Shown piece after piece: positions 3,238 to 23,425 of a DNA stretch of 23,425 bases. The stretch is from a virus, in IMG/VR virus record IMGVR_UViG_3300047094_001324, positions 1 to 23,425 of that record, one strand, 5' to 3'. Position 1 is the first letter of the stretch. Each line of letters opens with the position of its first letter. The position numbers were made by a program, and so were the translations under genes. The notes under the pieces were generated by a model that saw only the letters and a list, made by a program, of their open reading frames with translations, was not told where the DNA came from and ran no database searches.

Positions 3238-3240
3238 GAC

Positions 3241-9135: not shown

Positions 9136-10692
9136 ATGAAGAAAAAGTTAATAACGGAATCAGGAATAAGAAACATCAGAGAATTATCTAAAAGATACCC
9201 TGAGGCTAAGATATATTTTCACCAAGATTTAGATGGTGTAACCACCGCTTTAGGTATGAAAAGTTACTTAGAACAAAACGGAATAAAGGTGGTAGATGCT
9301 GAGATCATTCAATATGGTGATAAGGAATTTGCAATTAAGAAGTTGGATGCTGAGGGTGATGTTATGCCGGTGTTAGTTGACTTTGCTCACGGTAAACCAA
9401 TGTTCATTATACATACTGACCACCACGACACACAAGCGGGAGTTGAGCAAGGTACCTCAACTAATTTTAAATCTTCAAGATCTAACGTTGAGACAATATC
9501 TCAAACCGTATCTCCAAGAGATATTTTTCCATCTGACGATATCACTTTGATATCTACGGTGGATTCAGCAAATTATGCTCAACATGATATTAGTCCTGAA
9601 CAAGTAATGAACTATTTGTTTAAGGTAGATAAGGATCAATCACTACAAAAAAACAAAATGATAATGGGTATGGTTGCTAATAAATTATTATTGGCATTCA
9701 AAAACAAACCAGGGTTCTTGGAAAATATTGTAATGAATGCAAATCCATCGTTATTAAGTATATTGTTAAACATCAGATCTCAGATCAAAGAAAAAAGTTA
9801 TGCTGATGTTGGAGATTTAGAAAAAAACAAAGAGAGTTATGTTCAAACAATGAAAACTCACAAAAATGTTAAAGTTGATGATAAAATTATAGTTCAGTAT
9901 GGTGGAGGTAGTATGATGAAACCAGGATCATATGATAGATACACACCATTCAGAAATAATCCTGATGCGGACTTCTTGGTGATTGCTTGGCCATTAGGAT
10001 TGGTACAAGCGTCTTGTAATCCATTTAAGAAAGAAAGAGCACTTAAAGGTGTAAATTTAGGTGAGATCAAAGATGATGTCTTAAACAAGTGGAAATCACA
10101 ATTACAAGACAAGGACATTCCTTTATCAACAATAAAATGGATATCAGAATCAGGAAAAGGTTTTGGTGAACAATCAGTTGGTTTTACATTCAGAGATTTT
10201 AACGCCTTATATGGTAAAGAATTTAAACAAATGGCAGATGGGGAGGATATACTTGGTGATGTTGAAGAAGCAATGAAAAAACCATTCAGTAATTTAACAG
10301 ATAAAGAAATGAGAATGTTAGATTCTATTAGTGTAAACGCTTGGGATTTAATTCAATCTAATAGTGGGGGACATAAATGTATTACTAACATTTCTGGTTT
10401 AAGTTATTTAGGTAGATCTAAAAGACCACCTAAAGATAAATACAAATATAATGAAGAGTCAGATGATACACCTTATATTAAATTTACCAAGATGGTACAG
10501 AATGAATTTGTTAGAGTTTTGAAAGAAAAAATTAATGAAGATAGTGGTAATAGATATGAACCAAATTTTGAGGTTGAAATGACCGAACACGCAAGGTCAT
10601 TAGGAAATGCTAGAAAACAAGGTCAAGGATTAAGATTTTCAAGGTCGGCAGTAAAATCAAATCAAATGAGATTCAGACCAAATAATAGATAA
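9136..10692 (+). CDS. DHH-family phosphoesterase
   Basis: A 518-residue member of the DHH/DHHA1 phosphoesterases (RecJ, NrnA and relatives), manganese-dependent enzymes that cut phosphodiester bonds in single-stranded DNA, short RNA or cyclic dinucleotides. Visible motifs are HQDLDGVTT with Asp31 and Asp33, the signature DHHD at 95-98, a further VDSAN-type Asp near 136, and GGHK at 411-414 resembling the DHHA1 glycine-rich GGH site. The tail from about 480 is basic and may bind nucleic acid. The N terminus KLITESGIRNI closely resembles the leader IKLTESEIRNI of gene 12434, but here it runs straight into the catalytic domain with no cleavage spacer. It has no signal peptide. Its stop is two bases from the convergent DUF192 gene. 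Confidence 0.88.
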   Translation: MKKKLITESGIRNIRELSKRYPEAKIYFHQDLDGVTTALGMKSYLEQNGIKVVDAEIIQYGDKEFAIKKLDAEGDVMPVLVDFAHGKPMFIIHTDHHDTQAGVEQGTSTNFKSSRSNVETISQTVSPRDIFPSDDITLISTVDSANYAQHDISPEQVMNYLFKVDKDQSLQKNKMIMGMVANKLLLAFKNKPGFLENIVMNANPSLLSILLNIRSQIKEKSYADVGDLEKNKESYVQTMKTHKNVKVDDKIIVQYGGGSMMKPGSYDRYTPFRNNPDADFLVIAWPLGLVQASCNPFKKERALKGVNLGEIKDDVLNKWKSQLQDKDIPLSTIKWISESGKGFGEQSVGFTFRDFNALYGKEFKQMADGEDILGDVEEAMKKPFSNLTDKEMRMLDSISVNAWDLIQSNSGGHKCITNISGLSYLGRSKRPPKDKYKYNEESDDTPYIKFTKMVQNEFVRVLKEKINEDSGNRYEPNFEVEMTEHARSLGNARKQGQGLRFSRSAVKSNQMRFRPNNR

Positions 10693-12649: not shown

Positions 12650-14731
12650 ATGAAAAGAATGATAGATAGTTTTATAAAAAATATTGTTAGACAAAGTCTA
12701 AATGAAAATTATGGTTTGTTAAATGAGGATGAAAAGTCGTTAGAAAAATGTCCGGCTGGTGGTTTTTGTTTAAATGATGGTAGTTTATTGAAAGCAGAAA
12801 AATTAAATAAAACATTATCTCCGGCGAATAATAGTACTGCGGCTTCACAACTTATTATTAAATTAAAATCAAACTGTAATAATTTAAATTATGGTCCAGC
12901 AAATGAGACTATTGCTAGTCGGGCGGTGGAAGGTATTGGGATTGAACATTCAAAAACATTTACTGACGAAAATAAAGTTAAAAGACTAATTAATACTTTA
13001 GGTTTTCCAGAATGGTGTTTGGGAATAGAACTTGCTCAAGAAAAAGGTTATGCTGATGATGATAATTTTTGGGAGAAATTGTATGAGGGTGGTTTGTATT
13101 CATACACTTATGTAGCAAATCCATCCCTTGAAGTATTTCGTAGAACAATTAAAAAAACAGGAACACTTAAAAAAGACTATGACGAAAAAAGATCAACAGA
13201 TAAAATAAAATGGGATGAAGGATTAAAAAAATCTGGTTGGTGGGATGGTAAATTAATAAATAAAGATAAAGCTTATGCCGAGTGGAAGAAATCAGGGTTT
13301 AAAGACAAACCAATAGAGTATACAATTGGTGGTGGAGGTAATTCCGCTAATCAAGTATCATTTGAAGGATATGATTGTATAACTAATCATCCGGCATTAA
13401 TAAAAACACCAGTAAAAAATTTCCCTAACGGTGTAGGTTATAAATTAGACGTTACCAATCCAACTATTAAAAGTTTTATTTTTGGGGTTCAAAAACAAGG
13501 TCCTAAAGATAGTGCTATTGATCAAGGTGTGATAATGAAAGACGATGGGTCAGGCATTACCGTTAACTTTAATTGTCCAAGTAAATATTTAGAAGTCTCA
13601 CTATCAACTATTGCTTGGGATTATAATGCGGTTATAGATAGTGGTGGAAAAATTGCTTTAACCACAGATCCTGCTCGTGAAGAAAATTTTACAAATGAAA
13701 GTTATAGACATAAAGGTTTCAGACACAATTTATTAACTGAGGTAGAATTGAAATTAAAAGATACAGGTGAAGAAGTTGGTAAGATACAAAGTAAATTAGG
13801 ATTACCTGTGGAAAAAAATCCAACTTTTGGACCAAAGACATTAGCTGCAGTAATTAATCACCAAAAAACAGAAGGTGCTAAACTTACTACACCATTAAGA
13901 ATTGATGGTGTTGTTGATGATGCAACTTACGCATCAATAATGGCAATACAACCACCCCCATTTGAATTATCGGCAGCAAAAAAATCTAAGGGTGACGATG
14001 TTACATTAATTCAAAAACAGTTAGGGGCAAAGGGTGGAACATTTGGACCTGAAACTGAGGCTAAGGTAAAAGAATTTCAAACCAATTATGGTAAAACGGT
14101 TACTCCAGTATTAAGAACTGATGGTGTTGTTGATCAGCCAACTTTTGATTTAATTAAAAAATACAAAGGTTCTGATTCAAATAAAGTTTATTCAGGTAAA
14201 AAACATAATTATGTTATTGGTAATTGGATTAAAGTTACTCCTGAAACTGTAGATGAACAATTAAGTGGTAATGATGGGTATTTTAAAATAACTAATGTAA
14301 CTGAATATACTGTAGTTATTGATGCTGATTTTTTATCTAGTGGGACTACAGGAGGATCAACACAAAGAGTTTTATTTGGTGAAGACGCAAAAAATGGTAC
14401 TCAAGAGGTTATTAAAAGAGATAGAAATAACTCAGGCACAAGAACTAAGGGAAGCACAAGAACTAAGGGAAGTACAAGAAGTCGTACTTCAAGTACAGGT
14501 GATGTGGAGACTAAAAAACGAAGAGATGTACGTAATTCAGAATATTGTGATAGCTTAAGAAAGATAAAAAAACATTTAAATTTAAAGGTAAATTGCAAAA
14601 CATATCAAAGCACATTAAATAAAATTATGTTGGCACTTACAGGTGGAGCTCAAATTAAACCAGTTACCCCAGTTGCCCCAGTTGCCCCAGTTGCCCCAAT
14701 TACACCATCGGGAAATGTAACGATATATTAA
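12650..14731 (+). CDS. Large virion-associated candidate with two peptidoglycan-binding domains
   Basis: A 693-residue protein. Residues 1-26 form a leader (FIKNIVRQSLNENYGLLNED) with L-N-E sites resembling prohead-protease cuts. A Cys-containing region of unknown fold follows to about 370. PG_binding_1-like domains lie at about 374-428 (GKIQSKLG...FGPKTLAAV...DGVVDDATY) and 449-502 (TLIQKQLG...FGPETEAKVKEFQ...DGVVDQPTF). The C-terminal part has a basic Thr/Arg/Ser repeat (GTRTKGSTRTKGSTRSRTSS, about 597-616) and a PVAPVAPVAPITP repeat near the end. No lysozyme, amidase or endopeptidase motif is visible, so the unknown region may hold a novel enzyme or structural fold. It ends at a strong terminator. 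Confidence 0.78.
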   Translation: MKRMIDSFIKNIVRQSLNENYGLLNEDEKSLEKCPAGGFCLNDGSLLKAEKLNKTLSPANNSTAASQLIIKLKSNCNNLNYGPANETIASRAVEGIGIEHSKTFTDENKVKRLINTLGFPEWCLGIELAQEKGYADDDNFWEKLYEGGLYSYTYVANPSLEVFRRTIKKTGTLKKDYDEKRSTDKIKWDEGLKKSGWWDGKLINKDKAYAEWKKSGFKDKPIEYTIGGGGNSANQVSFEGYDCITNHPALIKTPVKNFPNGVGYKLDVTNPTIKSFIFGVQKQGPKDSAIDQGVIMKDDGSGITVNFNCPSKYLEVSLSTIAWDYNAVIDSGGKIALTTDPAREENFTNESYRHKGFRHNLLTEVELKLKDTGEEVGKIQSKLGLPVEKNPTFGPKTLAAVINHQKTEGAKLTTPLRIDGVVDDATYASIMAIQPPPFELSAAKKSKGDDVTLIQKQLGAKGGTFGPETEAKVKEFQTNYGKTVTPVLRTDGVVDQPTFDLIKKYKGSDSNKVYSGKKHNYVIGNWIKVTPETVDEQLSGNDGYFKITNVTEYTVVIDADFLSSGTTGGSTQRVLFGEDAKNGTQEVIKRDRNNSGTRTKGSTRTKGSTRSRTSSTGDVETKKRRDVRNSEYCDSLRKIKKHLNLKVNCKTYQSTLNKIMLALTGGAQIKPVTPVAPVAPVAPITPSGNVTIY
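14436..14480 (+). repeat. Tandem 18-base repeat in gene 12650
   Basis: GCACAAGAACTAAGGGAA occurs twice in tandem (14436-14453 and 14454-14471) with a diverged partial third copy starting GTACAAGAA. It encodes the Thr/Arg/Lys/Gly/Ser-rich repeat and keeps frame, so slippage would change length by six residues. Confidence 0.9.
14660..14698 (+). repeat. Tandem nine-base repeat in gene 12650
   Basis: Four consecutive units of nine bases, one CCAGTTACC and three CCAGTTGCC, encode the P-V-A repeat in the C-terminal tail. The unit is a whole number of codons, so gain or loss keeps frame. Confidence 0.9.
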
Positions 14732-14751
14732 TAAAAAACAATAAATTTATG

Positions 14752-14777
14752 AAGGGAGATTGATCTCCCTTTTTTTT
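14752..14777 (+). terminator. Terminator after gene 12650
   Basis: AAGGGAGA, loop TTGA, TCTCCCTT, then a run of T. It separates the late-type operon from the repair cluster. Confidence 0.9.
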
Positions 14778-14792
14778 ATGCCGTTTTTTTTA

Positions 14793-14800
14793 TATATTTG
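14793..14800 (+). promoter_or_regulatory. Host-type promoter box for the repair operon
   Basis: TATATTTG, four bases before ATG 14805. The upstream -33 element is only a T-rich tract (part of the preceding terminator), so it is weaker than the box at 11637. Confidence 0.5.
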
Positions 14801-14804
14801 TATT

Positions 14805-15194
14805 ATGGAAAAAATGATATATTTAGTTAGAGGAATACCGGGAAGTGGTAAGACAACTTTTGCAAAACAATTAACCCCAAATGTGTTTGAAGCGGATCAT
14901 TATTTTTATGATAATGATGGGAACTACAATTTTATTGCGTCTGAAATAAAAGAAGCTCATAAAGAGTGTCAACAATATGTTGGATATGCAATGGAGTCAA
15001 ACACACCAAAAATTGCAGTCTCAAACACATTCACACAAGAATGGGAACTTCAACCATATTATGAATTGGCAATTAAGTATGGTTATTATGTGACCTCTAT
15101 TATTGTGGAAAATAGACACGGAGGAACAAATAAACACGATTGTCCTGAAGATAAAATAGAATTAATGCGTAACCGTTTTGAAATAAAATTATAA
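14805..15194 (+). CDS. N4BP2-like P-loop kinase
   Basis: A 129-residue P-loop protein with Walker A GIPGSGKTT at about 10-18, an early acidic EADHYF segment near 31-36, and VSNTFTQEWELQPYYELA near 73-90, which matches the pattern of small AAA/zeta-toxin-like kinases related to human N4BP2 and to the kinase half of polynucleotide kinases. It therefore probably phosphorylates the 5'-OH end of RNA or DNA, though nucleotide or other substrates are possible. I place the start at ATG 14805, just after the promoter box; an in-frame ATG at 14760 would translate the terminator. Its stop overlaps the metallophosphoesterase start by one base (TAATG), suggesting the two work together in end repair. Confidence 0.88.
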   Translation: MEKMIYLVRGIPGSGKTTFAKQLTPNVFEADHYFYDNDGNYNFIASEIKEAHKECQQYVGYAMESNTPKIAVSNTFTQEWELQPYYELAIKYGYYVTSIIVENRHGGTNKHDCPEDKIELMRNRFEIKL

Positions 15195-15847
15195 TGAAAT
15201 TTGATAAAATATTAACAACAGGTAGAGTGTGGGTCACGTCTGATCCGCACTACAACCATAAAAACATTTGTAGAGGAGTTACCGGTTGGAGAACACTTGA
15301 TGGGAAAGTACCGAAAGATAATACAAGAGATTTCCAAACGTTAGAACTAATGAATAACACATTGGTTGATAATATCAATTCAAAGGTTGGTCAAAACGAC
15401 ACATTAATTATGTTAGGTGACGTTTCATTTGGTGGTTTTGAGTTTATTAAAATTTTCTTGGACAGATTGGTATGTAAAAACATTCACTTGGTTCTTGGAA
15501 ACCATGATCACCATATCAGAAACAATAGGGATAACATTAAAGATATGTTCTTATCTGTTAGTGATTACTTACAGGTTAACATTGTTGGTGAGAACTTTGT
15601 AATGACTCACTATCCATTTGCAAGTTGGAATGGACTTAACAAAGGTGTTGTTCACCTTCACGGACACGTTCACTTACCTGCAAGTAAAAAATGGGGTAAA
15701 GGTAAAAGATTAGATGTTGGTATGGATGGTAACAACCTATACCCATATAGTTTAACTGAGATTGTACACATGATGGATAAACGAGACATTGTTTCTGAAA
15801 TTGATAATGATCACCATCTAGATGATATAGTTGGGGTTGTAGGTTAA
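15194..15847 (+). CDS. Metallophosphoesterase (phage type)
   Basis: A calcineurin-like phosphoesterase of 217 residues with all five metal-site blocks: SDPHYNH (Asp17, His19), GDVSFGG near 75-81, GNHDHH near 101-106, THYP near 136-139, and HGHVH near 155-159. The D-x-H form with Pro at the first site is common in phage members. It would remove or cut phosphate esters, perhaps 2',3'-cyclic or 3'-phosphate RNA ends (inference from the coupled kinase upstream and the RNA ligase downstream). There is no signal peptide. The start overlaps the kinase stop, and the C-terminal tail is acidic and Asp-rich. Confidence 0.9.
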   Translation: MKFDKILTTGRVWVTSDPHYNHKNICRGVTGWRTLDGKVPKDNTRDFQTLELMNNTLVDNINSKVGQNDTLIMLGDVSFGGFEFIKIFLDRLVCKNIHLVLGNHDHHIRNNRDNIKDMFLSVSDYLQVNIVGENFVMTHYPFASWNGLNKGVVHLHGHVHLPASKKWGKGKRLDVGMDGNNLYPYSLTEIVHMMDKRDIVSEIDNDHHLDDIVGVVG

Positions 15848-15873
15848 ATGACAACTCCAATATATTTATTACT

Positions 15874-16359
15874 ATGAATGATACGTTTGCTTATGACTCA
15901 CAATTTTTACCTGGAACACAAATTACCGTTGTATTTAAAGAAAATCCAAATTATGGTCAATTAAATGAATTTTTTAATGATTATGGTTATGGGTTTTATG
16001 TTCCTGAATTTAAAACAATTTTTATAGATGGTGAGGTTTTTTTAGGGGAAGATGGATTAACTATGGATGATTTACGTTTTATAGAGGCACACGAAATATC
16101 ACATTTAATATTAAACCATGATGGTCCAAGATCTGAAAATGATGAATTAGAAGCGGATTTAGGAGCATACATTCTTTTAAAGAATAAAAATTTACCCACT
16201 GATCGTCTTGTTGATGAGTTTGAATATAGACACGGAATAGAATTCTCTGAAGATCTTATAAATAAGATTGGAAATAAATTCCCACATACATTAAGAGAGA
16301 ATAGTATAATCAATTGGGAACTACATCAACAACTGATGAAAAATAAAAACCGAATTTAA
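15874..16359 (+). CDS. HExxH metalloprotease-like protein (ImmA/IrrE-like)
   Basis: A 161-residue protein with the zinc-binding motif HEISH at residues 73-77 and ELEAD at 91-95, the spacing and E-x-E-A-D pattern typical of ImmA/IrrE-type and related single-domain metallopeptidases. Residues LILNHDGPRSENDELEADLG follow directly after the HEISH motif. In mobile elements, members of this group cleave repressors or toxins; here the target is unknown. No signal peptide is present. The ATG is preceded by TATATTTATTACT, a weak relative of the TATTTATA box, so it may be transcribed independently of the metallophosphoesterase. The C-terminal 60 residues have no recognisable domain. Confidence 0.8.
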   Translation: MNDTFAYDSQFLPGTQITVVFKENPNYGQLNEFFNDYGYGFYVPEFKTIFIDGEVFLGEDGLTMDDLRFIEAHEISHLILNHDGPRSENDELEADLGAYILLKNKNLPTDRLVDEFEYRHGIEFSEDLINKIGNKFPHTLRENSIINWELHQQLMKNKNRI

Positions 16360-16394
16360 ATTCAAAAAATAGTAGTTAGTTTAGATTATTTTAC

Positions 16395-16402
16395 TATCTT
16401 TG
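16395..16402 (+). promoter_or_regulatory. Host-type promoter box before gene 16410
   Basis: TATCTTTG with seven bases to ATG 16410, in a 50-base gap after gene 15874. The -33 region (TTAGTTTAG) is weak. Confidence 0.55.
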
Positions 16403-16409
16403 TTCTTAT

Positions 16410-16601
16410 ATGAAAACCCCATGTAAGGAATGTCCTCACGTTATTAAAAATCGTCATAATGATATGATTGTGGAGTTCGGTAAAAGAACAGGAAAGAAAC
16501 ATAATTGTCATATGACCGAAGGGGTGAAAGATTTGTGGAATATTAAAAACAAAAAATTAGAATGTTATGGATCAAAGAGAGATGATTTACGGAGTGTGTG
16601 A
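16410..16601 (+). CDS. Small Cys/His zinc-binding-type protein (DUF6283-like)
   Basis: A 63-residue protein beginning MKTPCKECPHVIKNRHNDM. Cys5 and Cys8 form a CxxC knuckle, and Cys33/His34 and Cys52 provide later ligands, the arrangement of small phage proteins of the DUF6283 type. It probably binds one zinc ion; its function is unknown. The host-type promoter just before it suggests expression early in infection. Its last 35 bases overlap the following ORF if that gene starts at 16567. Confidence 0.72.
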   Translation: MKTPCKECPHVIKNRHNDMIVEFGKRTGKKHNCHMTEGVKDLWNIKNKKLECYGSKRDDLRSV

Positions 16602-16788
16602 TAAGACAGGGAAATGTGATTCCTATTTTGGGTTCTTCAAAAATGAGAAAGATGCGGAACACGAAGTTGAAATCCAATCCAACAGACTTAAGGAAGACTT
16701 GGGTATGATGGATATTGACATTCAAACAGACCGAGCATTATTCAATGGTAAATTAGTAATAGTAATTCATAGATACGTATTAAGATGA
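16567..16788 (+). CDS. Hypothetical protein (73 aa)
   Basis: Small unrecognised protein. ATG 16567 or ATG 16582 (MIYGVCDKTGKCDSYFGFF) may be the start; the second reduces the overlap with the preceding gene from 35 to 20 bases and gives a more natural N terminus. It has a CDKTGKCD segment near the N terminus and an acidic, helical middle (NEKDAEHEVEIQSNRLKEDL). Its stop overlaps the start of the next gene (ATGA), so translation is probably coupled. No function can be assigned. Confidence 0.7.
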   Translation: MDQREMIYGVCDKTGKCDSYFGFFKNEKDAEHEVEIQSNRLKEDLGMMDIDIQTDRALFNGKLVIVIHRYVLR

Positions 16789-17147
16789 AAACAAGAGAAA
16801 CTAAATTTGGAACATATATAGAAATGGAAACAGAAACAAGCACAAAATTAACTGGTGATAAAATCACGGTATTTGTGGAGAGATTAAAAAAAATTGGAAT
16901 TGATGTAAAACTATCAGGAAACTTCCCTTGGGTATATATTACTGAAATCTGTGGTAAAAGAGTAACTGAAAAATTTGCGGGTAATCACGGATTTACATTA
17001 ATATTTTTACCAGGTAGAAATGATAGCCCACCATCTGATTTTACTGATATTGGAGAGACATTCAAACTAATAAGAAAATATAGTAGAGAGGCTCTTTTGG
17101 TAAAAATGATGAAGGATGATCAAGAACTTGGTTTATATGATAATTAA
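16785..17147 (+). CDS. Hypothetical protein (120 aa)
   Basis: Unrecognised soluble protein, coupled to the preceding gene by an ATGA overlap and 11 bases before the RNA ligase. It contains DKITVFVERLKKIGIDVKLS, NFPWVYITEICGKRVTEKF and a conserved-looking GNHGFTLIFLPGR block near 69-81, then a helical C terminus. Neither the sequence nor any visible motif gives a function. Position suggests an accessory protein of the repair cluster. Confidence 0.75.
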   Translation: MKTRETKFGTYIEMETETSTKLTGDKITVFVERLKKIGIDVKLSGNFPWVYITEICGKRVTEKFAGNHGFTLIFLPGRNDSPPSDFTDIGETFKLIRKYSREALLVKMMKDDQELGLYDN

Positions 17148-17158
17148 AAAATTATAAA

Positions 17159-18277
17159 ATGGAAAATAATAATAGTGTATGTTATGTTGGTTTGATCGGT
17201 GAGATTATACCAATAGAAGGTGCGGATAACATTGAACTTGCATTGGTTGGTGGTTGGCAAGCCATCACCAAGAAAGGTGAATACCAAGTTGGTGATATGG
17301 TTGTTGTTGCAACTACCGATGCGGTTATACCACAAAAACTTTCTGATGACTTAGGTGTTACAAGTTATCTTCGTAAAGGTCAGAGAGTAAGAACTATAAA
17401 ACTTCGTAAGGTTTATTCTGAATGTTTAATAATACCAATAGGGTTTGTACCTGATAAATATAGATATGATGGTTCTGACTGCATGGAGTTACTTGAAGTG
17501 TTCAAATACGAACCACCAGTTAAGATGGTTCAGTTAAGTGGGGGTAGAAAATTTAAATACCACCAAAATCCTAACTTCAAAGTATATTACAAATTTCCTA
17601 ATCAAAAGAACGTACCTGATATGTTCAATAAGGAAGATGAGGTTGTTATAACTCGTAAGTTACATGGGACTAACGCTCGTTATGGGATAGTTAGAAAGAA
17701 AAAACTTTCTTTATTAGATCGTATCAAAATGTTATTTGGAAACCAATGGGCGGCATTTGAATACGTTTATGGTTCTCATAATGTTGAAAAAGGATCTGAC
17801 TCTCAAGGTTTCTACAATACCGATGTATGGAATACTGTTGCAAACCAATACGATATAAGAGGTAAATTATGGGATTACGTAAAAGACACATACGAACCAA
17901 ATGAGTTAACTGAAGGTGTTGTAATATATGGTGAGATATATGGTGGTGGAATACAAAAAAACTATGACTATGGTTTAACTGATGTTAAATTTGTTGGGTT
18001 TGACATAGAGGTTGATGGTGTTTACCAACCATACCTTAATGAAACTGTACACTTTGATTGTTTAGAATTACCTAAAGTTGAATTATTGTATCAAGGTAAT
18101 TGGAATAAAGAAGAACAAGACAAATATGTCTTTAGTAACTTTATAGAAGGAACTAAAGTTCCTCACGAAGGTATAGTTGTTAAATCTGTTACTGGTGATC
18201 GTAGAAAGGTATCTAAAGTTATCAATCCTGATTATAGTATATTTAGTGAAAAAAATAACGTAGGTGACTCCCATTAA
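17159..18277 (+). CDS. RNA ligase, Rnl5 (DraRnl)-like
   Basis: An ATP-dependent ligase of 372 residues with the full set of nucleotidyltransferase motifs: motif I KLHGTN with the catalytic Lys at 167, III near VVIYGEIYGGG (about 254-264), IIIa KFVGFDIEVDG (about 278-288), IV HEGIVVKS (about 336-343) and V around VSKVINPDY (about 351-359). An N-terminal domain of some 150 residues with an OB-like pattern (IEGADNIELALVGGWQAI) comes before motif I, as in the Deinococcus DraRnl (Rnl5) group, which seals nicks with a 3'-ribonucleotide end. With the kinase and metallophosphoesterase upstream, it could complete an end-healing and sealing pathway, perhaps restoring tRNAs cut by host nucleases (inference). 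A terminator overlaps its stop. Confidence 0.9.
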   Translation: MENNNSVCYVGLIGEIIPIEGADNIELALVGGWQAITKKGEYQVGDMVVVATTDAVIPQKLSDDLGVTSYLRKGQRVRTIKLRKVYSECLIIPIGFVPDKYRYDGSDCMELLEVFKYEPPVKMVQLSGGRKFKYHQNPNFKVYYKFPNQKNVPDMFNKEDEVVITRKLHGTNARYGIVRKKKLSLLDRIKMLFGNQWAAFEYVYGSHNVEKGSDSQGFYNTDVWNTVANQYDIRGKLWDYVKDTYEPNELTEGVVIYGEIYGGGIQKNYDYGLTDVKFVGFDIEVDGVYQPYLNETVHFDCLELPKVELLYQGNWNKEEQDKYVFSNFIEGTKVPHEGIVVKSVTGDRRKVSKVINPDYSIFSEKNNVGDSH

Positions 18278-18299
18278 CTTGATGGGGTCACTTTTTTTT
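18264..18299 (+). terminator. Terminator after RNA ligase
   Basis: GTGACTCCCAT pairs with ATGGGGTCAC (one bulged base), then a T tract at 18292-18299. The ligase stop codon lies in the loop. Confidence 0.85.
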
Positions 18300-18315
18300 A
18301 TTATTATTAAATAAC

Positions 18316-18516
18316 ATGGAACAAAAATTAAATGTATTTTCATTCCTATCAAAGAATCTTTTAATCTACGCAATTATTTTATTGATAGAGAATGATTACA
18401 ATCCACTTAATTGGTGGATATTAAGCGGGTTCTTTCAGATTGTAATAACAATAGTTTTTGAGTTATATATACTTGGAACATCATTAGAAGAAAAAAATAT
18501 AGAAAATGGGAATTAA
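18316..18516 (+). CDS. Small two-pass membrane protein (66 aa)
   Basis: Two predicted membrane helices, about residues 12-25 (KNLLIYAIILLIE) and 32-53 (NWWILSGFFQIVITIVFELYIL), joined by a short polar loop, with an acidic C terminus. It is the first gene after the ligase terminator, and its stop overlaps the following gene by 11 bases. No family is recognised. Its size would suit a holin or a superinfection-exclusion peptide, but neither is supported by a lysis cassette nearby. Confidence 0.7.
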   Translation: MEQKLNVFSFLSKNLLIYAIILLIENDYNPLNWWILSGFFQIVITIVFELYILGTSLEEKNIENGN

Positions 18517-19444
18517 GAAAATTAAAAAAGAAAACAATTCAATTAACATTAGTTTAGTTGATTTAATGGGTAAATTAGATAATAGTGAGACTAAAAAGTA
18601 TACACAATTTTTAGTTAAAATACTTAAAAAAAATTTTGATAATGAACAGGATTTCTTGGTAAGAGATTCTTCACATAGGGAAAGAAAGATTGATCAAGTT
18701 TTAAATGACAGTACGTTTGATGGTTGGATTACAAAAAAAATACTTAGTAATTTATATGGTTGGGATGAAGTTGATTCATTTATTCATTTTTGTGAATTTA
18801 TGGAAAGAGGATTAACTAATGAAAAAGACATTAGTAAATACGATAGTTGGGAAATGGTTACAAGTGAGGTATTCCAAGCTAAAAATCGTAACTTATTTAA
18901 AATGGCCAAAAAAGAAGTTAAAGTTATTTACGAGGACGATCAATATTTGTGTATTAAACCATTAACTTATGCGGCATCTGTTTCATATGGTTATCAAACT
19001 AGATGGTGTACTGCTTCAGTTCAGGAACCTAGTTATTTCTACAATCACTCAAAAGACGGAGTACTTGTATATTTAATTGATAAAGTTAATAATGTGAAAT
19101 TTGGATTTTACCATAATAGTTATCAAATTCAAATATTCAATCAAAAAGACGATAGAGTAGATTCAATGGAGACAGGTATTCCGGTAGAATTATTACATAA
19201 ATTGATTGGTGAAATGAAATCTGAGGCTAAAAATAAAAATTTTAACTATAAGTTATTTGGTGAAAGTGAATTGGAAAACATGAAAAAATATAGACATGGA
19301 GAGGAAATACCGGTGGATGATTTATTGGATGATATGATAAATCCTGTGGAGGAAAGTGTGTCTGAAATGTTAAATAATTTACAAGAAAGAGTTCACAGAT
19401 TAAGACCTACAAATCCACTTGAGATTGGTGATAATTTACCATAA
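18506..19444 (+). CDS. Phage protein with RWCTA motif (312 aa)
   Basis: Unrecognised by name, but the central block YGYQTRWCTAS (about 161-171), followed by SKDGVLVYLIDK and VKFGFYH, belongs to a pattern I associate with large phages and with PcfJ-like proteins (a [KR]WCTA box followed by G-x-L-x-Y-x-I-D). The function of this pattern is not known; the invariant Trp-Cys-Thr suggests an active or binding site. The N-terminal half is charged and helical and the C terminus is acidic. It overlaps the upstream membrane-protein gene by 11 bases and is followed by a 94-residue gene after 17 bases. The protein is predicted cytoplasmic. Confidence 0.75.
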   Translation: MGIKKIKKENNSINISLVDLMGKLDNSETKKYTQFLVKILKKNFDNEQDFLVRDSSHRERKIDQVLNDSTFDGWITKKILSNLYGWDEVDSFIHFCEFMERGLTNEKDISKYDSWEMVTSEVFQAKNRNLFKMAKKEVKVIYEDDQYLCIKPLTYAASVSYGYQTRWCTASVQEPSYFYNHSKDGVLVYLIDKVNNVKFGFYHNSYQIQIFNQKDDRVDSMETGIPVELLHKLIGEMKSEAKNKNFNYKLFGESELENMKKYRHGEEIPVDDLLDDMINPVEESVSEMLNNLQERVHRLRPTNPLEIGDNLP

Positions 19445-19461
19445 TTTTAAAAAATTATAAT

Positions 19462-19746
19462 ATGGATAATTTAAATAAAAACATTAAAAAAATGTATTTG
19501 AGAATAAATGGTGAAGTAAATGACAATGAAATACCACCTACTCCATCAAAAAAAGTTAAAACTTTTACTCTTGATGAGGATCAGGTTAAAAAATTGGAGG
19601 AGTGGCAAGAACACATCAAAGCAATATACGGTAAGTACGGTGATTATGAATATAGGTTTACTTCAAATGGAATTGGTCAAATAGTTGAGGTCTATAGTGG
19701 ATTAGCTGATGTAACTTTAGATCTTACAGATGTTGACAAATGGTAA
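19462..19746 (+). CDS. Hypothetical protein (94 aa)
   Basis: Small acidic protein with a basic, flexible N terminus (MDNLNKNIKKMYLRING) and a compact C-terminal half containing LDEDQVKKLEEWQEHIKAIY and the regular stretch YEYRFTSNGIGQIVEVYSG, ending DLTDVDKW. It has the look of a conserved phage protein of unknown role; I know no Pfam name for it. It is the last gene before the terminator at 19771-19797 and belongs to the 18316-19746 run. Confidence 0.72.
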   Translation: MDNLNKNIKKMYLRINGEVNDNEIPPTPSKKVKTFTLDEDQVKKLEEWQEHIKAIYGKYGDYEYRFTSNGIGQIVEVYSGLADVTLDLTDVDKW

Positions 19747-19770
19747 AAGCAAACTTGACAAATTATATGG

Positions 19771-19797
19771 AACCCTCACAGAAATGTGGGGGTTTTT
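19771..19797 (+). terminator. GAAA tetraloop terminator before the T9SS cassette
   Basis: AACCCTCACA, loop GAAA, TGTGGGGGTT, then T residues. It insulates the following gene from upstream transcription. Confidence 0.9.
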
Positions 19798-19830
19798 ATG
19801 TTAACCAAAAGTTAAGGGTATTAGGGTTTT

Positions 19831-19860
19831 GTTAAATTGTGGTAAGTGAATTGATTTAAC
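19831..19860. repeat. Inverted repeat, possible operator
   Basis: GTTAAAT (19831-19837) and ATTTAAC (19854-19860) are perfect inverted copies with a 16-base spacer. The right arm ends 15 bases before the -7 box of the T9SS gene and spans its expected -33 region, so a repressor bound here would block transcription. A second short palindrome, TTAAC-N5-GTTAA, is at 19801-19815. Confidence 0.4.
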
Positions 19861-19875
19861 CTATTTGTTGGACTA

Positions 19876-19883
19876 TATATTTG
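19876..19883 (+). promoter_or_regulatory. Host-type promoter box for the T9SS cargo gene
   Basis: TATATTTG, the Bacteroidota -7 consensus, 25 bases before ATG 19909. The leader is A-rich with no Shine-Dalgarno site, as is usual in this phylum. Confidence 0.7.
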
Positions 19884-19908
19884 TGTAATAAAAATATAAA
19901 AATAAAAT

Positions 19909-21474
19909 ATGAAAAAAATTTACGCAAGTATCGTAATGTTAATGTTTGTTTTCTTAACAAACGCACAAAGTCAGTTTTGGACTGACACTGATTATAAGGG
20001 AGGATTTCCTGTAACAGACAATACACCACAAACAGATTGGACTTATGGGTGGTCTAATTTTGATCCAGAAAATACAAATTACCCAACAACACAAACAACC
20101 GTTAGTACGGACATTACAACAAACACAACTTGGTCAGGAGTAATCAAACTTCAAAACAAGGTTTATGTTAAAAACGGAGCAACTCTTACTATTTTACCGG
20201 GAACAATTATCAGAGGTGACTACGCAACACAAGGAACTTTGATTGTTACAAGAGGTTCTAAACTTATCGCTGACGGAGAACAATTTAATCCAATTGTTTT
20301 TACATCTAACAATCCAATTCAACAAAGAACTGGTGGTGATTGGGGTGGTGTTATTATCTTGGGTAATGCTATTAACAACCAACCTGGTGGTGTTGCAAAT
20401 ATTGAAGGACTTACGGCTACAAATTTTACACAACACGGAGGTACTAACGATAACGATGACTCAGGTGTAATTAGATTCGTACGTATTGAGTTTGCAGGTA
20501 TTCCACTTGAACCAAACAAAGAGATAAATGGTATTACTTTTGGTTCTGTAGGTAATCAAACGTTAGTTGATTACGTACAAGTAAGTTACTCTGGTGACGA
20601 CTCTTTTGAGTGGTTTGGAGGAACTGTAAATTGTAAACACTTAATTGCATATTCATCAATTGATGATGACTTTGATACTGACTTTGGATACAGAGGTAAT
20701 GTTCAATTTGGTTTGTCGATTAGAAATGAAAATTTGTCAGACGCTCCTGGCGACTCAAATTGTTTTGAATCGGATAATGACTCACAAGGTAGTGCGGCAC
20801 AACCATTGACGGCACCTATTTTTTCTAACTTCACAATAATTGGGGCTAAAGCTAACGGGACGGTTTCCCTACCAATTGGTGAAAAATTTGAAAAGGCTTT
20901 CAGATTAAGAAGAAATACCGCAACTTCTGTTTTCAACACTATTGTTACTGGATGGGAAAAAGGATTATCCATTGAAGGTCTACCTGTAGAAGATAATATT
21001 TTAGGAGACACAATGCATTTCCACAGTAACATTCTTTCTAACTTTAACCCTGGTACCGTTTGTATTACACTAACACCTGGATTATTATCATCGTATTTTT
21101 CACAAAACGCAAATGACTCAGTTTCAACACATTTAAACATCAATTGGGTAACACCATTTGTTCCACTTGGATTGACTCCTGATTATAGATTACAAGAAGG
21201 TTCTACTGCTGCGGTTGGTGCAAGTTTTCCACAAGGAGTATTTGGTGATTTAGCATCGGTAAAAGAAAAATCAGATGACTTTATAATCTATCCAAACCCC
21301 GCAAGTGATGTGGTTTATGTTAGTAAAAAATCATACATGGAGATAATCAACCAAAATGGTCAAGTAATCAACAGTGTAAATGATAGTAAGATTGATTTAA
21401 GAAACTTACCTGAAGGTGTGTATTTTTTAAGAGTAAATAAAGTAAAAACTAAAAAACTAATAATTAAGAAATGA
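19909..21474 (+). CDS. Secreted beta-helix protein with T9SS C-terminal sorting domain
   Basis: A 521-residue exported protein. Residues 1-19 are a signal peptide (MKKIYASIVMLMFVFLTNA) with Gln after the cut site, typical of Bacteroidota. Residues about 75-430 are Gly/Asn-rich repeats of a right-handed beta-helix kind (KNGATLTILPGTIIRGD, GGDWGGVIILGNA, VSYSGDDSFEWFGGTVN, SIDDDFDTDFGYRGNVQFG), a layout seen in many Bacteroidota surface proteins. Residues about 455-521 form a type A sorting domain (FIIYPNPASDVVYV, then LPEGVYFLRVN, ending in KTKKLIIKK), recognised by the type IX secretion system. It should be carried across the outer membrane and released or anchored at the surface. It is bounded by terminators with its own promoter, the layout of a phage moron, and was probably acquired from a host. 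Confidence 0.92.
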   Translation: MKKIYASIVMLMFVFLTNAQSQFWTDTDYKGGFPVTDNTPQTDWTYGWSNFDPENTNYPTTQTTVSTDITTNTTWSGVIKLQNKVYVKNGATLTILPGTIIRGDYATQGTLIVTRGSKLIADGEQFNPIVFTSNNPIQQRTGGDWGGVIILGNAINNQPGGVANIEGLTATNFTQHGGTNDNDDSGVIRFVRIEFAGIPLEPNKEINGITFGSVGNQTLVDYVQVSYSGDDSFEWFGGTVNCKHLIAYSSIDDDFDTDFGYRGNVQFGLSIRNENLSDAPGDSNCFESDNDSQGSAAQPLTAPIFSNFTIIGAKANGTVSLPIGEKFEKAFRLRRNTATSVFNTIVTGWEKGLSIEGLPVEDNILGDTMHFHSNILSNFNPGTVCITLTPGLLSSYFSQNANDSVSTHLNINWVTPFVPLGLTPDYRLQEGSTAAVGASFPQGVFGDLASVKEKSDDFIIYPNPASDVVYVSKKSYMEIINQNGQVINSVNDSKIDLRNLPEGVYFLRVNKVKTKKLIIKK

Positions 21475-21560
21475 TCTATCTTTGGTTATTGTTGAGTATA
21501 ATGTTACTTTTTATAATAAATAAAGATAGAAAAGATTATTTTGAATGGTCTGAAAAATAA
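21471..21560 (+). CDS. Membrane micro-protein (29 aa) coupled to T9SS gene
   Basis: The ATG overlaps the stop of the T9SS gene (ATGA). The product is MIYLWLLLSIMLLFIIN followed by KDRKDYFEWSEK: one hydrophobic helix and a charged C-terminal tail. Strong coupling and a terminator starting three bases later support a real gene. Function unknown; it might assist the exported partner or act on the inner membrane. It has the same design as the micro-gene at 22863. Confidence 0.55.
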   Translation: MIYLWLLLSIMLLFIINKDRKDYFEWSEK

Positions 21561-21563
21561 AAT

Positions 21564-21596
21564 AAACCCCATCTCTAAAAAGAGTGGGGGTTTTTT
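21564..21596 (+). terminator. Terminator closing the T9SS cassette
   Basis: AAACCCCA and CTCT pair with AGAG and TGGGGGTTT around a short A-rich loop, then a T tract. Its sequence is nearly the same as the terminator at 22804-22833. Confidence 0.9.
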
Positions 21597-21607
21597 GTTT
21601 TATAAAG

Positions 21608-21615
21608 TATTTATA
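21608..21615 (+). promoter_or_regulatory. TATTTATA promoter-like box before gene 21629
   Basis: The context ATAAAGTATTTATATTA starts 12 bases after the upstream terminator and ends 13 bases before ATG 21629. With terminators on both sides, the following gene needs its own promoter and this is the only candidate. Confidence 0.5.
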
Positions 21616-21628
21616 TTAAAAACCATTA

Positions 21629-22786
21629 ATGGAAAATAAAAAAATTATTACTGAAGAATTAAGTAGGATTAAAAATCTTATGGGTTATGATAGATCTAAA
21701 ACATTAAATGAAAATATTAATGAAGGTTGGTTTGATACTTTATATGACACTGTGGATGGTGAAATAGCGAGATATTTATTACCTTCAGGTGATATCATTA
21801 CCGCAGATAAACTAAAAGGGGGACCACCTAAAGGGTCGGTACAGTTAAATAGTAAAGATGTAGAAACAGCGCTTGGAGTTGCCAGTGGGGTAAAAACCGC
21901 TTCCTCTCTTCTTGGTGGTGGAGGATCAACTGTGGCGGCAACAGGTGCTGCTAAGGCTGGAGCGGCTGCTGCTGCTGAGGCTGGAGCTGGAGCGGCTGCT
22001 GCTACTGCTGAGGTTGGAGCGGCAGCAACTACTGCGGCTGCGGCAGGTGGAGAAGCCGCTGCGGCGACTACGTTTTTAGGTTTAGGTCCTGTTGGTTGGA
22101 CAATAATCGGAGTTGCCGGAATTGCAGCACTTGGTTATTGGGCAGCAACAAAAGACGATAAAATGAGTATGATTAAAAATTTATTTGGAATTTGTAAGTC
22201 AAGTAAAGATAAGAACAAGTGGAAAAGATATATGAGTGATACTGAAGTTAGAAAAAATTCAGGTATATTATACCATGCTATGGAAGGTTTAGGAACAGAT
22301 GAACCTAAAATTTATGATGTATTTAGATTGTTTAAAAGTCCTGGTGATTTTTGTGCGGTAAGTGAAAAATATGAAAGTACATTTGACGAATCATTATTAG
22401 ATGCTTTAGATGGAGACTTTGATTATGGTTGGGAACCAATTGCAAAATCTTTAGTTGATATGACTAAAAACTACGCTAAAACTGAGTCTGAAGAATATTG
22501 TAAAACTCACGTTCAGGAATGTGCGGACAAATTAAGGTTGTATTGTGAACAAAATCCTAAAGATAATAAATGTAAAGTTTTAAAAACTAATGTTGTTGAC
22601 TTTAAAAATTGTAATGGTGAATACTATAAAGGATGTAAAGGACCAAAAATAGTACAAGTACAAAAATGTTTAGGTGTGAGCGTTGATGGTAAATTTGGTG
22701 AGGATACAGAAAAAAAATTAGAAGAAAAAATAAAAAGAAAAACTTTCAAAGACGAAGACATTAAAATAATATGTGATAAAAAATAA
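21629..22786 (+). CDS. Packaging-leader protein with Ala-rich membrane segment, annexin-like repeat and peptidoglycan-binding domain
   Basis: A 385-residue multidomain protein. Residues 6-20 (IITEELSRIKNLMGY) form a leader like those of genes 3241, 12434 and 12650, followed by LNE and NE sites that could be cut by a prohead protease, leaving a mature start at GWFDTLYD. Residues about 90-147 are Ala/Gly-rich, then a hydrophobic helix (LGPVGWTIIGVAGIAALGYW, about 151-170). Residues about 210-265 resemble one annexin repeat (YHAMEGLGTDEPKIYDVF with the G-x-GTDE signature at 220-225). The C terminus has a peptidoglycan-binding motif (VQVQKCLGVSVDGKFGEDTE). The set suggests an injected or membrane-acting virion protein. 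The gene has its own late-type promoter box and terminator. Confidence 0.82.
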   Translation: MENKKIITEELSRIKNLMGYDRSKTLNENINEGWFDTLYDTVDGEIARYLLPSGDIITADKLKGGPPKGSVQLNSKDVETALGVASGVKTASSLLGGGGSTVAATGAAKAGAAAAAEAGAGAAAATAEVGAAATTAAAAGGEAAAATTFLGLGPVGWTIIGVAGIAALGYWAATKDDKMSMIKNLFGICKSSKDKNKWKRYMSDTEVRKNSGILYHAMEGLGTDEPKIYDVFRLFKSPGDFCAVSEKYESTFDESLLDALDGDFDYGWEPIAKSLVDMTKNYAKTESEEYCKTHVQECADKLRLYCEQNPKDNKCKVLKTNVVDFKNCNGEYYKGCKGPKIVQVQKCLGVSVDGKFGEDTEKKLEEKIKRKTFKDEDIKIICDKK

Positions 22787-22803
22787 AATATTAACACATT
22801 TTT

Positions 22804-22833
22804 AAACCCCATTTCTAAAGAGTGGGGTTTTTT
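22804..22833 (+). terminator. Terminator after gene 21629
   Basis: AAACCCCA pairs with TGGGGTTT, with an imperfect inner stem (CT/AG), then a T tract. It is almost a copy of the terminator at 21564-21596. Confidence 0.85.
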
Positions 22834-22850
22834 ATTTAAAATAAATTCAC

Positions 22851-22858
22851 TATCTTTG
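22851..22858 (+). promoter_or_regulatory. Host-type promoter box before gene 22863
   Basis: TATCTTTG, four bases before ATG 22863. The upstream TTTTTTATTT in the terminator tract may act as a weak -33 region. Confidence 0.55.
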
Positions 22859-22862
22859 TACT

Positions 22863-22970
22863 ATGGTAGGTTTTATACTTTTTTTACTGATAATAATGGT
22901 CTTGTTTTTTATTAGGAAAGTCAATAAATATAAGGATCACCCATTCAATAAATTTTTTAATGATAGGTAA
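22863..22970 (+). CDS. Membrane micro-protein (35 aa)
   Basis: Starts MVGFILFLLIIMVLFFI, one hydrophobic helix, followed by a basic, polar tail (RKVNKYKDHPFNKFFNDR). The positive-inside rule places the tail in the cytoplasm. A host-type promoter box four bases upstream and an 11-base overlap with the next gene (22960) support translation. Same design as the micro-gene at 21471. Function unknown. Confidence 0.55.
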   Translation: MVGFILFLLIIMVLFFIRKVNKYKDHPFNKFFNDR

Positions 22971-23235
22971 GAATAAGATATTAGTTATTTTAAATTTTTT
23001 GGACACACATTATGGTGACTTAGTGTGTAGCCCAAAAAATCTTTATTATCATAAAGAGGGTGAGATTTATTTTAGATTTAACTTAAAAGATAAAATTATT
23101 TTTTTAGAGTATAAAAATTTTATCCAACCAATATGTAAAGCGTTGAATATAAAAGAAGATATGTTAAATGATCTTTATGAAATAATTAAAGAATGGATTG
23201 AATATGTTTTTAAAATTGAAGGAAAAATAATGTAA
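22960..23235 (+). CDS. Hypothetical protein (91 aa)
   Basis: Unrecognised soluble protein starting MIGKNKILVILNFLDTHYGD and rich in Lys, Ile and Tyr, with a helical C-terminal half (ALNIKEDMLNDLYEIIKEWI). No motif or signal peptide is visible. It overlaps the upstream membrane micro-gene by 11 bases and is two bases before the HAD gene, so the three form a transcript running out of the window. Confidence 0.7.
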   Translation: MIGKNKILVILNFLDTHYGDLVCSPKNLYYHKEGEIYFRFNLKDKIIFLEYKNFIQPICKALNIKEDMLNDLYEIIKEWIEYVFKIEGKIM

Positions 23236-23237
23236 TT

Positions 23238-23425
23238 ATGAAAGTATTGATGTTAGATAACGATGGTGTAATTTGTCTATCCAATAATTGGGGTGGACGA
23301 ACAAAGAAATGGGCAAAATACCGAAGTGCAAATCCTGATTTAAGTGGTGAGAAAAAAAATGCTCCTGTATCTGTACGATTTGATGACTTTGATAAAAAAG
23401 CAATTAAAATCCTTAATGAGATACT
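23238..23425 (+). CDS. HAD-superfamily phosphatase, 3' end cut by window edge
   Basis: Starts MKVLMLDNDGVICLSNNWGG. The DxDGV signature (Asp7 and Asp9) is motif I of the haloacid dehalogenase superfamily, where the first Asp forms the phospho-enzyme. The frame stays open to base 23425, so only about 62 residues are visible and motifs II-IV are outside. A nucleic-acid 3'-phosphatase or nucleotidase is possible. Given the kinase and ligase elsewhere in the window, a phosphatase for RNA ends would fit, but this is inference. Confidence 0.72.
   Translation, partial: MKVLMLDNDGVICLSNNWGGRTKKWAKYRSANPDLSGEKKNAPVSVRFDDFDKKAIKILNEI

Follow-up and report, generated by a model that had tools for sequence, protein, structure and literature searches.

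Why should a virus carry a gene whose product bears a sorting domain of the type IX secretion system (T9SS)? The question is raised by the gene at 19909..21474 (plus strand) of the IMG/VR virus record IMGVR_UViG_3300047094_001324, whose 23,425 bases were analysed in full and are referred to here as the window. A preliminary description, made from the letters of this DNA, had proposed a moron-like cassette whose product is placed on the surface of the infected cell. We consider it rather likely that the gene is a host-derived accessory gene for phosphorus uptake, driven by PhoB and encoding a T9SS-exported beta-helix surface protein that acts with a TonB-dependent receptor.

Domain structure and predicted fold of the gene product

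The frame starts with ATG and runs without interruption for 521 codons (the features of the gene and of its surroundings located below are all on the plus strand). Residues 460-520 (21286..21468) matched TIGR04183 of NCBIfam with 39 bits against a cut-off of 23 (5.7e-10) and PF18962 of Pfam with 45.8 bits against a cut-off of 27 (7.7e-12), and a profile search of the PDB, for which 48 relatives served as the profile, gave five matches, among them the solved T9SS C-terminal domains (CTDs) 8glk and 8glj. An AlphaFold model of the 521-aa protein (48 rows) had a mean pLDDT of 87.8 and a pTM of 0.81. The modelled CTD is a beta-sandwich at the extreme C-terminus which superposes on solved T9SS CTDs, with target-normalised TM values of 0.69 for 8glk_D (the NucA-CTD bound in the T9SS translocon), 0.66 for 8glj_D (FspA-CTD) and 0.51 for 7pq4 (RgpB-CTD). 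The type A sorting domain named in the preliminary description is thus borne out by two families above their cut-offs and by the fold match to the NucA-CTD.

The N-terminus, MKKIYASIVMLMFVFLTNA/QS, was judged by eye to be signal-peptide-like: residues 1-19 (19909..19965) are hydrophobic, end with NA and are followed by Q, and a helix was modelled at residues 2-17. A Q following the signal peptide is described as the Q-rule of Bacteroidetes in the relevant passage of PMC5837995, with which this N-terminus agrees by eye. By domain and modelled fold, the product is a T9SS type A cargo with a beta-helix body like those of ElpS and FII (see below), and it is probably exported through the host T9SS to the surface of the infected cell.

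The body (about residues 53-430, 20065..21198) was delimited from the AlphaFold model, VIA-align and a 17-sequence alignment. A beta-helix had been proposed earlier, and both the model and the Z values of about 22 from VIA-align 2 agree with it: 22.1 for the tailspike 5w6p_D (rmsd 3.4 over 276 residues), 21.9 for NosD and 21.8 for mannuronan epimerase. Since these three are tied, the fold of the body alone is uninformative on function. In the 17-sequence alignment, which extends from phages to lipoprotein-like relatives, E205, D230, D231, E234, D252, D253, D256 and E287 are invariant, and these eight acidic positions suggest a binding or active site. A PHROG search of the gene product gave zero matches. 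Codon use was compared as the preliminary description had proposed: GC3 of the gene is 0.223, within the 0.15-0.30 of the 17 other window genes tested. By this measure the gene is ordinary for the window, and a recent import with foreign codon use was not seen.

Occurrence in phages and the TonB-dependent receptor partner

The protein is encoded at 41 further IMG/VR loci, with 56-100% identity (labels such as L001 or L186 denote loci of this analysis, the window's own copy being L042). Among the resulting 42 open reading frames, 38 are complete at both ends and give 24 distinct sequences, all of which end, by eye, in a sorting-domain-like tail. A search for sorting domains in phages, called for in the preliminary description, found PF18962 above cut-off in all 23 phage records examined; in LR745206 the matches fall in other genes. 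Many of the phage records are short fragments. Searches for hallmark genes gave terminase PF03237 in 7 of 22 records and Gp23 in 5 of 17; the 290-kb record of L014 has both, and neither was found in the 175-kb record of L040 or the 274-kb record of L016. The carriers appear to be large, in part T4-like phages, presumably of Flavobacteriales-like hosts.

A TonB-dependent receptor of 853-929 aa is encoded by the next gene downstream, on the same strand, at 22 of the 42 phage loci; another gene follows at 17 (window included), and three are cut inside the surface-protein gene. At the six loci read in detail (L017, L020, L024, L027, L032 and L040), the gap between the two genes is at most 5 nt or the genes overlap slightly, and Plug and barrel domains were both above cut-offs in the four receptors tested (L017, L020, L032 and L040). 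At L032, Gp23 lies 1.7 kb past the receptor gene. Plug was found in 12 of 22 phage records, one copy each; it was found in none of the three records of 274-291 kb, and because 10 of the 22 records are without it the receptor is not obligatory.

The window has no receptor gene, so its gene is to be taken as a relative of the ElpS/FII-type family and not as a complete pair. DNA similarity to the receptor-bearing loci L017-L019, L023-L027 and L037 ends at a probable recombination junction at 21191..21195, past which the C-terminus of the window protein differs from theirs and the receptor gene is absent; similarity to L020-L022 and L028 already stops at 21037. A single recombination near 21192 may therefore have exchanged the C-terminus with loss of the receptor gene, or the event may have gone the other way. 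A distant 431-aa version with a lipobox-like start and, by eye, no CTD is found in LR745206 (L152, a phage record of 634,780 bp), upstream of that phage's own TonB receptor-like gene; one T9SS sorting domain above cut-off lies elsewhere in the record.

Quick trees were built from best-hit samples. In the tree of the body (109 sequences), a single clade made up of phages alone (SH-aLRT 99) holds all 24 IMG/VR phage rows, that of the window among them; it nests among Flavobacteriales rows, and LR745206 and the gut contig L153 (an unverified record) are long branches outside it. In the tree of the receptor (85 sequences), the 15 IMG/VR phage rows are likewise one clade (support 98), with inner branching compatible with the body tree. 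Judged from this placement and from the hallmark genes on related records, the gene is phage-borne and of host origin. The body is under purifying selection, with dN/dS of 0.05-0.15 in the 15 pairs tested and 0.095 between the window and L001, both of which are without the receptor.

Some phages carry further genes beside the pair. Three more genes follow the pair at L017-L019, coding for a family 2 glycosyltransferase, a calcineurin-like phosphoesterase and a YceI protein (L017:12566-14644). This set also adjoins the surface protein at L011 and L012, and the L017-type phosphoesterase clusters with genes in the bacterial loci L052, L057, L101, L104 and L122. By analogy with the lipid remodelling of phosphate starvation, the set is a possible phosphate-saving lipid-remodelling island. 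At L020:14209-15201, an SprB-repeat (PF13573) protein, another possible surface protein, is encoded directly after the receptor gene.

Bacterial relatives and a probable link to phosphate

Bacterial counts were taken from the best 80 of 476 loci of a genome scan, mostly metagenome-assembled genomes (MAGs) binned as Crocinitomicaceae or other Flavobacteriales, with some evident misnomers among the bin labels. A receptor adjoins the relative at 73 of these 80 loci, and PhoB-like and PhoR-like genes are both near at 39 (34 of the 61 loci with at least 2.5 kb of downstream sequence). Among family models, the regulators matched PhoB best and the kinases PnpS/PhoR. At the other 41 loci, some with short flanks, at least one of the two genes is missing. 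Six clusters of neighbouring genes at the bacterial loci (4, 21, 83, 107, 110 and 155) included no phosphate transporter: cluster 4 is OmpA-like, 21 a SpoIIE phosphatase, 107 an M43 peptidase and 155 PcrB, and 83 and 110 had no match.

Of 60 genomes from the family to which one Flavobacteriaceae MAG belongs, 56 had a match (E 0.001 or better), two of them only at about 1e-4. Among twelve Flavobacteriaceae loci hand-picked from matches of 41-46% identity, all encode proteins that are lipoprotein-like by eye, all have the receptor adjacent, and five have PhoB and PhoR beside them. These five share the layout of a cluster reported for F. johnsoniae, which consists of PhoR (Fjoh_0543), PhoB (Fjoh_0544), a TonB transporter (Fjoh_0545) and FII (Fjoh_0546) (PMC8115612). 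In the relevant passages of that paper, Fjoh_0545 and FII responded to phosphate depletion with fold changes of 8.02 and 9.91 (table values, which the text calls log2FC), and FII was compared with and modelled on polygalacturonase and was linked to Caulobacter ElpS. ElpS, for its part, is reported to be induced by phosphate starvation, to adjoin a TonB receptor and to be linked with phosphatase activity (PMC2996285). The window body is homologous to the lipoprotein-like relatives, some of them FII-like in layout, and keeps the conserved acidic positions. By this analogy, FII is the probable Flavobacterium counterpart, one that is strongly induced by phosphate depletion.

Promoter repeats

A Pho-box-like direct repeat, GTTAACCAAAAGTTAAG, with two TTAA units 11 bp apart, lies upstream of the gene at 19800..19816. 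PhoB boxes are 11-bp direct repeats. The pattern TTAA-N7-TTAA was present in 8 of 12 dereplicated phage promoters versus 11 of 362 dereplicated control upstream regions (Fisher 3.8e-9), some of the control matches being divergent genes with the same shared upstream region. It was also present in 43 of 48 dereplicated bacterial receptor promoters versus 56 of 429 controls, which were not dereplicated. Among periods of 7-22 bp, 11 bp was the most prominent. From this enrichment, the cassette is probably driven by the host PhoB; cyanophage genes under host PhoBR control are a precedent (PMC10976474).

A mobile cassette with the layout of a moron

Lambdoid morons are additional genes, each equipped with a terminator and probably a promoter of its own, that separate two genes found side by side in a relative. 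A relative of this kind exists for the window. The different contig L186 matches window positions 14189-19802 at 96.6% and then 21576-23257 at 97.1%, and lacks the cassette in between (19803..21575); the edges are uncertain by about 24 nt, the length by which the two match segments overlap in L186. The left neighbour (19462..19746, 94 aa, cluster 17) precedes this empty site, flanks the gene on its left in sister phages too (L027 among them), and is followed directly in L186 by the right neighbour, a phage protein of 385 aa (21629..22786). The left neighbour has a match to PF01326 (PPDK ATP-binding) at 1.3e-4, under the cut-off and probably by chance. The cassette lies between two genes that are adjacent in L186.

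Stem-loops with T-tails mark the left edge (19769..19796) and the right edge (21564..21593). They fold at -17.1 and -14.5 kcal/mol, which agrees with the flanking terminators of the preliminary description; a consensus terminator scan listed neither, and the calls rest on folding, by which the cassette has its own terminator. The empty site of L186 has one weaker stem-loop where the window has two. In the promoter region, TATATTTG at 19876..19883 is clear and is taken by us as a -7-type element of Bacteroidota promoters; no clear -33 element was seen upstream of 19909, and a sigma-70 scan gave no excess (6 sites versus 11.6 expected).

The unit appears in phages of different backgrounds. Positions 19786-21614, a unit of 1.8 kb, are 96% identical in L001-L003, in which the rest of the window had no DNA match at the thresholds used. 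Similarity to L004-L012, L029 and L035 begins at 19872-19874 (19966 for L006 and L010) and runs to the right terminator, where it stops at 21595-21606, except in L029, which is truncated within the gene. Apart from this, most of these loci have a single gene in common with the window, near 9163-10578 and at about 70%. The gene also recurs at the same site in L027, whose backbone is 83-92% identical over the matching stretches. Since L027 has the gene and L186 does not, gain by the window and loss by L186 are both possible. The left junction recurs in L013 (99.9%) and L038 (97.8%), both of which end inside the gene; the exact 3' end of the gene had no match among other viral contigs, and the right junction therefore rests on the window contig.

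Taken from these comparisons, the cassette is a mobile accessory unit with the layout of a moron, as had been proposed, and its absence from L186 suggests that it is dispensable for phage growth. Judged from the IMG/VR record with its 41 further loci, the repeated left junction and the empty site, the gene is a phage gene and does not look like a piece of bacterial chromosome. It resembles lambdoid morons in layout and differs from them in belonging to large metagenomic phages known from sequence alone.

Proposed role and alternative explanations

In the mechanism that we propose, the cassette would be a moron that serves in effect as an auxiliary metabolic gene. Its product, of the same beta-helix family as Caulobacter ElpS and Flavobacterium FII, would be delivered by the T9SS and not by a lipid anchor. 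Under phosphate shortage in the infected cell, the host PhoB would bind the 11-bp repeats and switch the cassette on; the protein would pass Sec, its CTD would be recognised, and the T9SS would carry it across the outer membrane. On or near the cell surface, the protein would work with a TonB-dependent receptor to capture or process a phosphorus source and pass it inward, where the imported phosphorus would feed phage DNA synthesis. The receptor would be the one encoded immediately downstream in many sister phages; for the window phage, either the host or another part of the phage genome would have to supply it. Throughout this scheme, we infer the substrate (phosphorus), the export, the control by PhoB, the timing and the host.

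Several observations weigh against this scheme. The window itself is without the receptor gene, and the 14 top-ranked loci L155-L168, which have short flanks, have no receptor beside the gene, so that relatives lacking a TonB partner exist. The PhoB- and PhoR-like proteins score under curated cut-offs, and the twelve Flavobacteriaceae loci are a selected sample, of which seven are without PhoB and PhoR. Kinship to ElpS and Fjoh_0546 rests on layout and on the published papers, and the function of ElpS and FII is itself unproven. The exact repeat is missing from 4 of the 12 phage promoters (L005, L020, L023 and L028), and a 20-bp period is also enriched in phages (5 of 12 versus 3.4%), as are periods of 21-22 bp in bacteria; the box grammar is therefore unsettled, and other OmpR-type regulators could use 11-bp repeats. 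Finally, dN/dS of the CTD is scattered from 0 to 0.37 and is higher than that of the body in some pairs.

The alternative that survives best, although we judge it unlikely, is superinfection exclusion or receptor masking, in which the exported protein, together with the phage TonB receptor in the relatives, would cover or replace the surface receptors of rival phages. TonB receptors often serve as phage receptors, exclusion of rivals is a frequent effect of moron products, and otherwise dissimilar phages share the cassette as a unit. The same idea has been put forward for the cargo of Cryophage (PMC7468147). However, the purifying selection on the body in the 15 pairs tested and the acidic positions kept from phages to lipoprotein relatives speak against such a role, as do the PhoB/PhoR-like genes often found beside the bacterial versions and the promoter repeats, which suggest phosphate control. 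The preliminary description had named a block of superinfection or altered adhesion as the possible purpose; the relatives instead tie the protein to a TonB receptor and PhoB/PhoR-like genes. Judged from them, a role in gathering scarce phosphorus is more likely than one in blocking rival viruses.

A shade less likely again is the uptake of a substrate other than phosphorus, such as a polysaccharide, a vitamin or a metal, by the same receptor-partner design, with PhoB and PhoR as incidental neighbours in some members of the family. A beta-helix body is a typical trait of polysaccharide-active proteins, FII itself was likened to polygalacturonase (PMC8115612), and the missing regulatory genes counted above (PhoB and PhoR at 7 of 12 Flavobacteriaceae loci, at least one of the two at 41 of 80) fit this explanation. 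Against it stand the published induction by phosphate shortage of ElpS (PMC2996285) and FII (PMC8115612), the 39 of 80 loci with both genes, and the 11-bp repeats.

It is improbable that the protein is a tail-spike-like virion component whose C-terminal beta-sandwich merely resembles a T9SS CTD. The body does align with the tailspike 5w6p_D at Z 22.1, and Gp23 lies within a few kb at L032, but many non-viral beta-helices align equally well, the protein has a signal-peptide-like start and a CTD above curated cut-offs, its relatives are bacterial T9SS-type proteins and lipoproteins, and many phages pair it with a TonB receptor. A chimeric assembly joining a foreign gene to a phage contig, for which the ends of the near-identical L013 and L038 inside the gene and the unmatched 3' end might speak, is very improbable and largely contradicted by the left junction repeated in those two contigs, the 41 further phage loci with copies, the single phage clade of 24 distinct rows and the gene at the same place in L027, the closest receptor-bearing backbone.

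Other features of the window

A glutamine synthetase gene at 5636-6829 (PF00120 and PF03951 above cut-off) is a further metabolic gene of the window, and thioredoxin- and glutaredoxin-like frames were seen by eye at 882 and 1198. Short N-terminal leaders (LTE..L..I and IR.IL.E) are common to many otherwise unrelated phage proteins, for example those starting at 3238, 9136, 12434, 12650 and 21629 in the window and many in L003 and L014. Within the first 25 residues, two simple patterns occurred in 32 and 48 of 488 proteins, versus averages of 4.25 and 2.75 in random stretches. These may be capsid-targeting leaders of injected virion proteins.

Relation to known systems and significance

The statement of the preliminary description that no phage system working by T9SS export was known does not hold, since T9SS cargo of Cryophage was reported in 2020 (PMC7468147) and T9SS sorting domains are known from crAss-like phages (PMC6949934). 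Three Cryophage genes have such domains, and hijack of the host system with superinfection exclusion was proposed for them; the cargo genes vary between phages and are thought to use host secretion (PMC7468147). Phage use of the T9SS is a proposal in both papers, whose relevant passages report no export test. BFVD also contains viral proteins named as bearing a T9SS sorting domain. The present gene shares the sorting domain with these systems. Their cargo, unlike that described here, consists of an endoglucanase, a GH39 protein, a PA14 protein and BACON proteins, and the passages concerned mention neither a receptor partner nor a link to phosphate (PMC7468147, PMC6949934).

The likeness to ElpS (CC0170) with CC0171 (PMC2996285) and to FII with Fjoh_0545 (PMC8115612) is that of a surface protein beside a TonB receptor in the phosphate-starvation response. 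ElpS and FII are chromosomal lipoproteins, whereas the present protein is phage-encoded and has a T9SS CTD in place of the lipid anchor. Cyanophages likewise have genes for phosphate acquisition or genes that answer the host PhoBR, but in the relevant passages those named (pstS, mazG, hli2 and gp43) involve no outer-membrane receptor and no T9SS (PMC10976474). No report of a phage-encoded TonB receptor was found among the openly licensed papers listed, of which only PMC10013915 contains the term (once), and a term search found TonB unmentioned in the main text of a survey of phage phosphorus genes (PMC10987575). The new part is thus the receptor-partner module, phage T9SS cargo being already in print as a proposal.

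For the phages as a group, we put at about even the chance that large Bacteroidota phages carry and exchange a complete outer-membrane uptake module, in which host PhoB controls a TonB receptor and its T9SS-exported partner, and so remodel the outer surface of the infected cell to import phosphorus, borrowing TonB energy, the T9SS and PhoB sensing from the host; LR745206 would then be an independent version with a lipoprotein-like partner. Phage phosphate-supply genes are best known from cyanophages and act inside the outer membrane. To our knowledge, the T9SS is found only in Bacteroidota and their relatives. If our reading is true, viral metabolic take-over would extend to the outer membrane, by a phage TonB receptor and a T9SS-exported partner, and would reach the T9SS and a phylum of importance to the turnover of carbon and phosphorus in lakes, soils and guts. 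The cassette would also provide a directly testable case of the use of the T9SS by a phage and of phage genes switched on by the host PhoB outside cyanobacteria.

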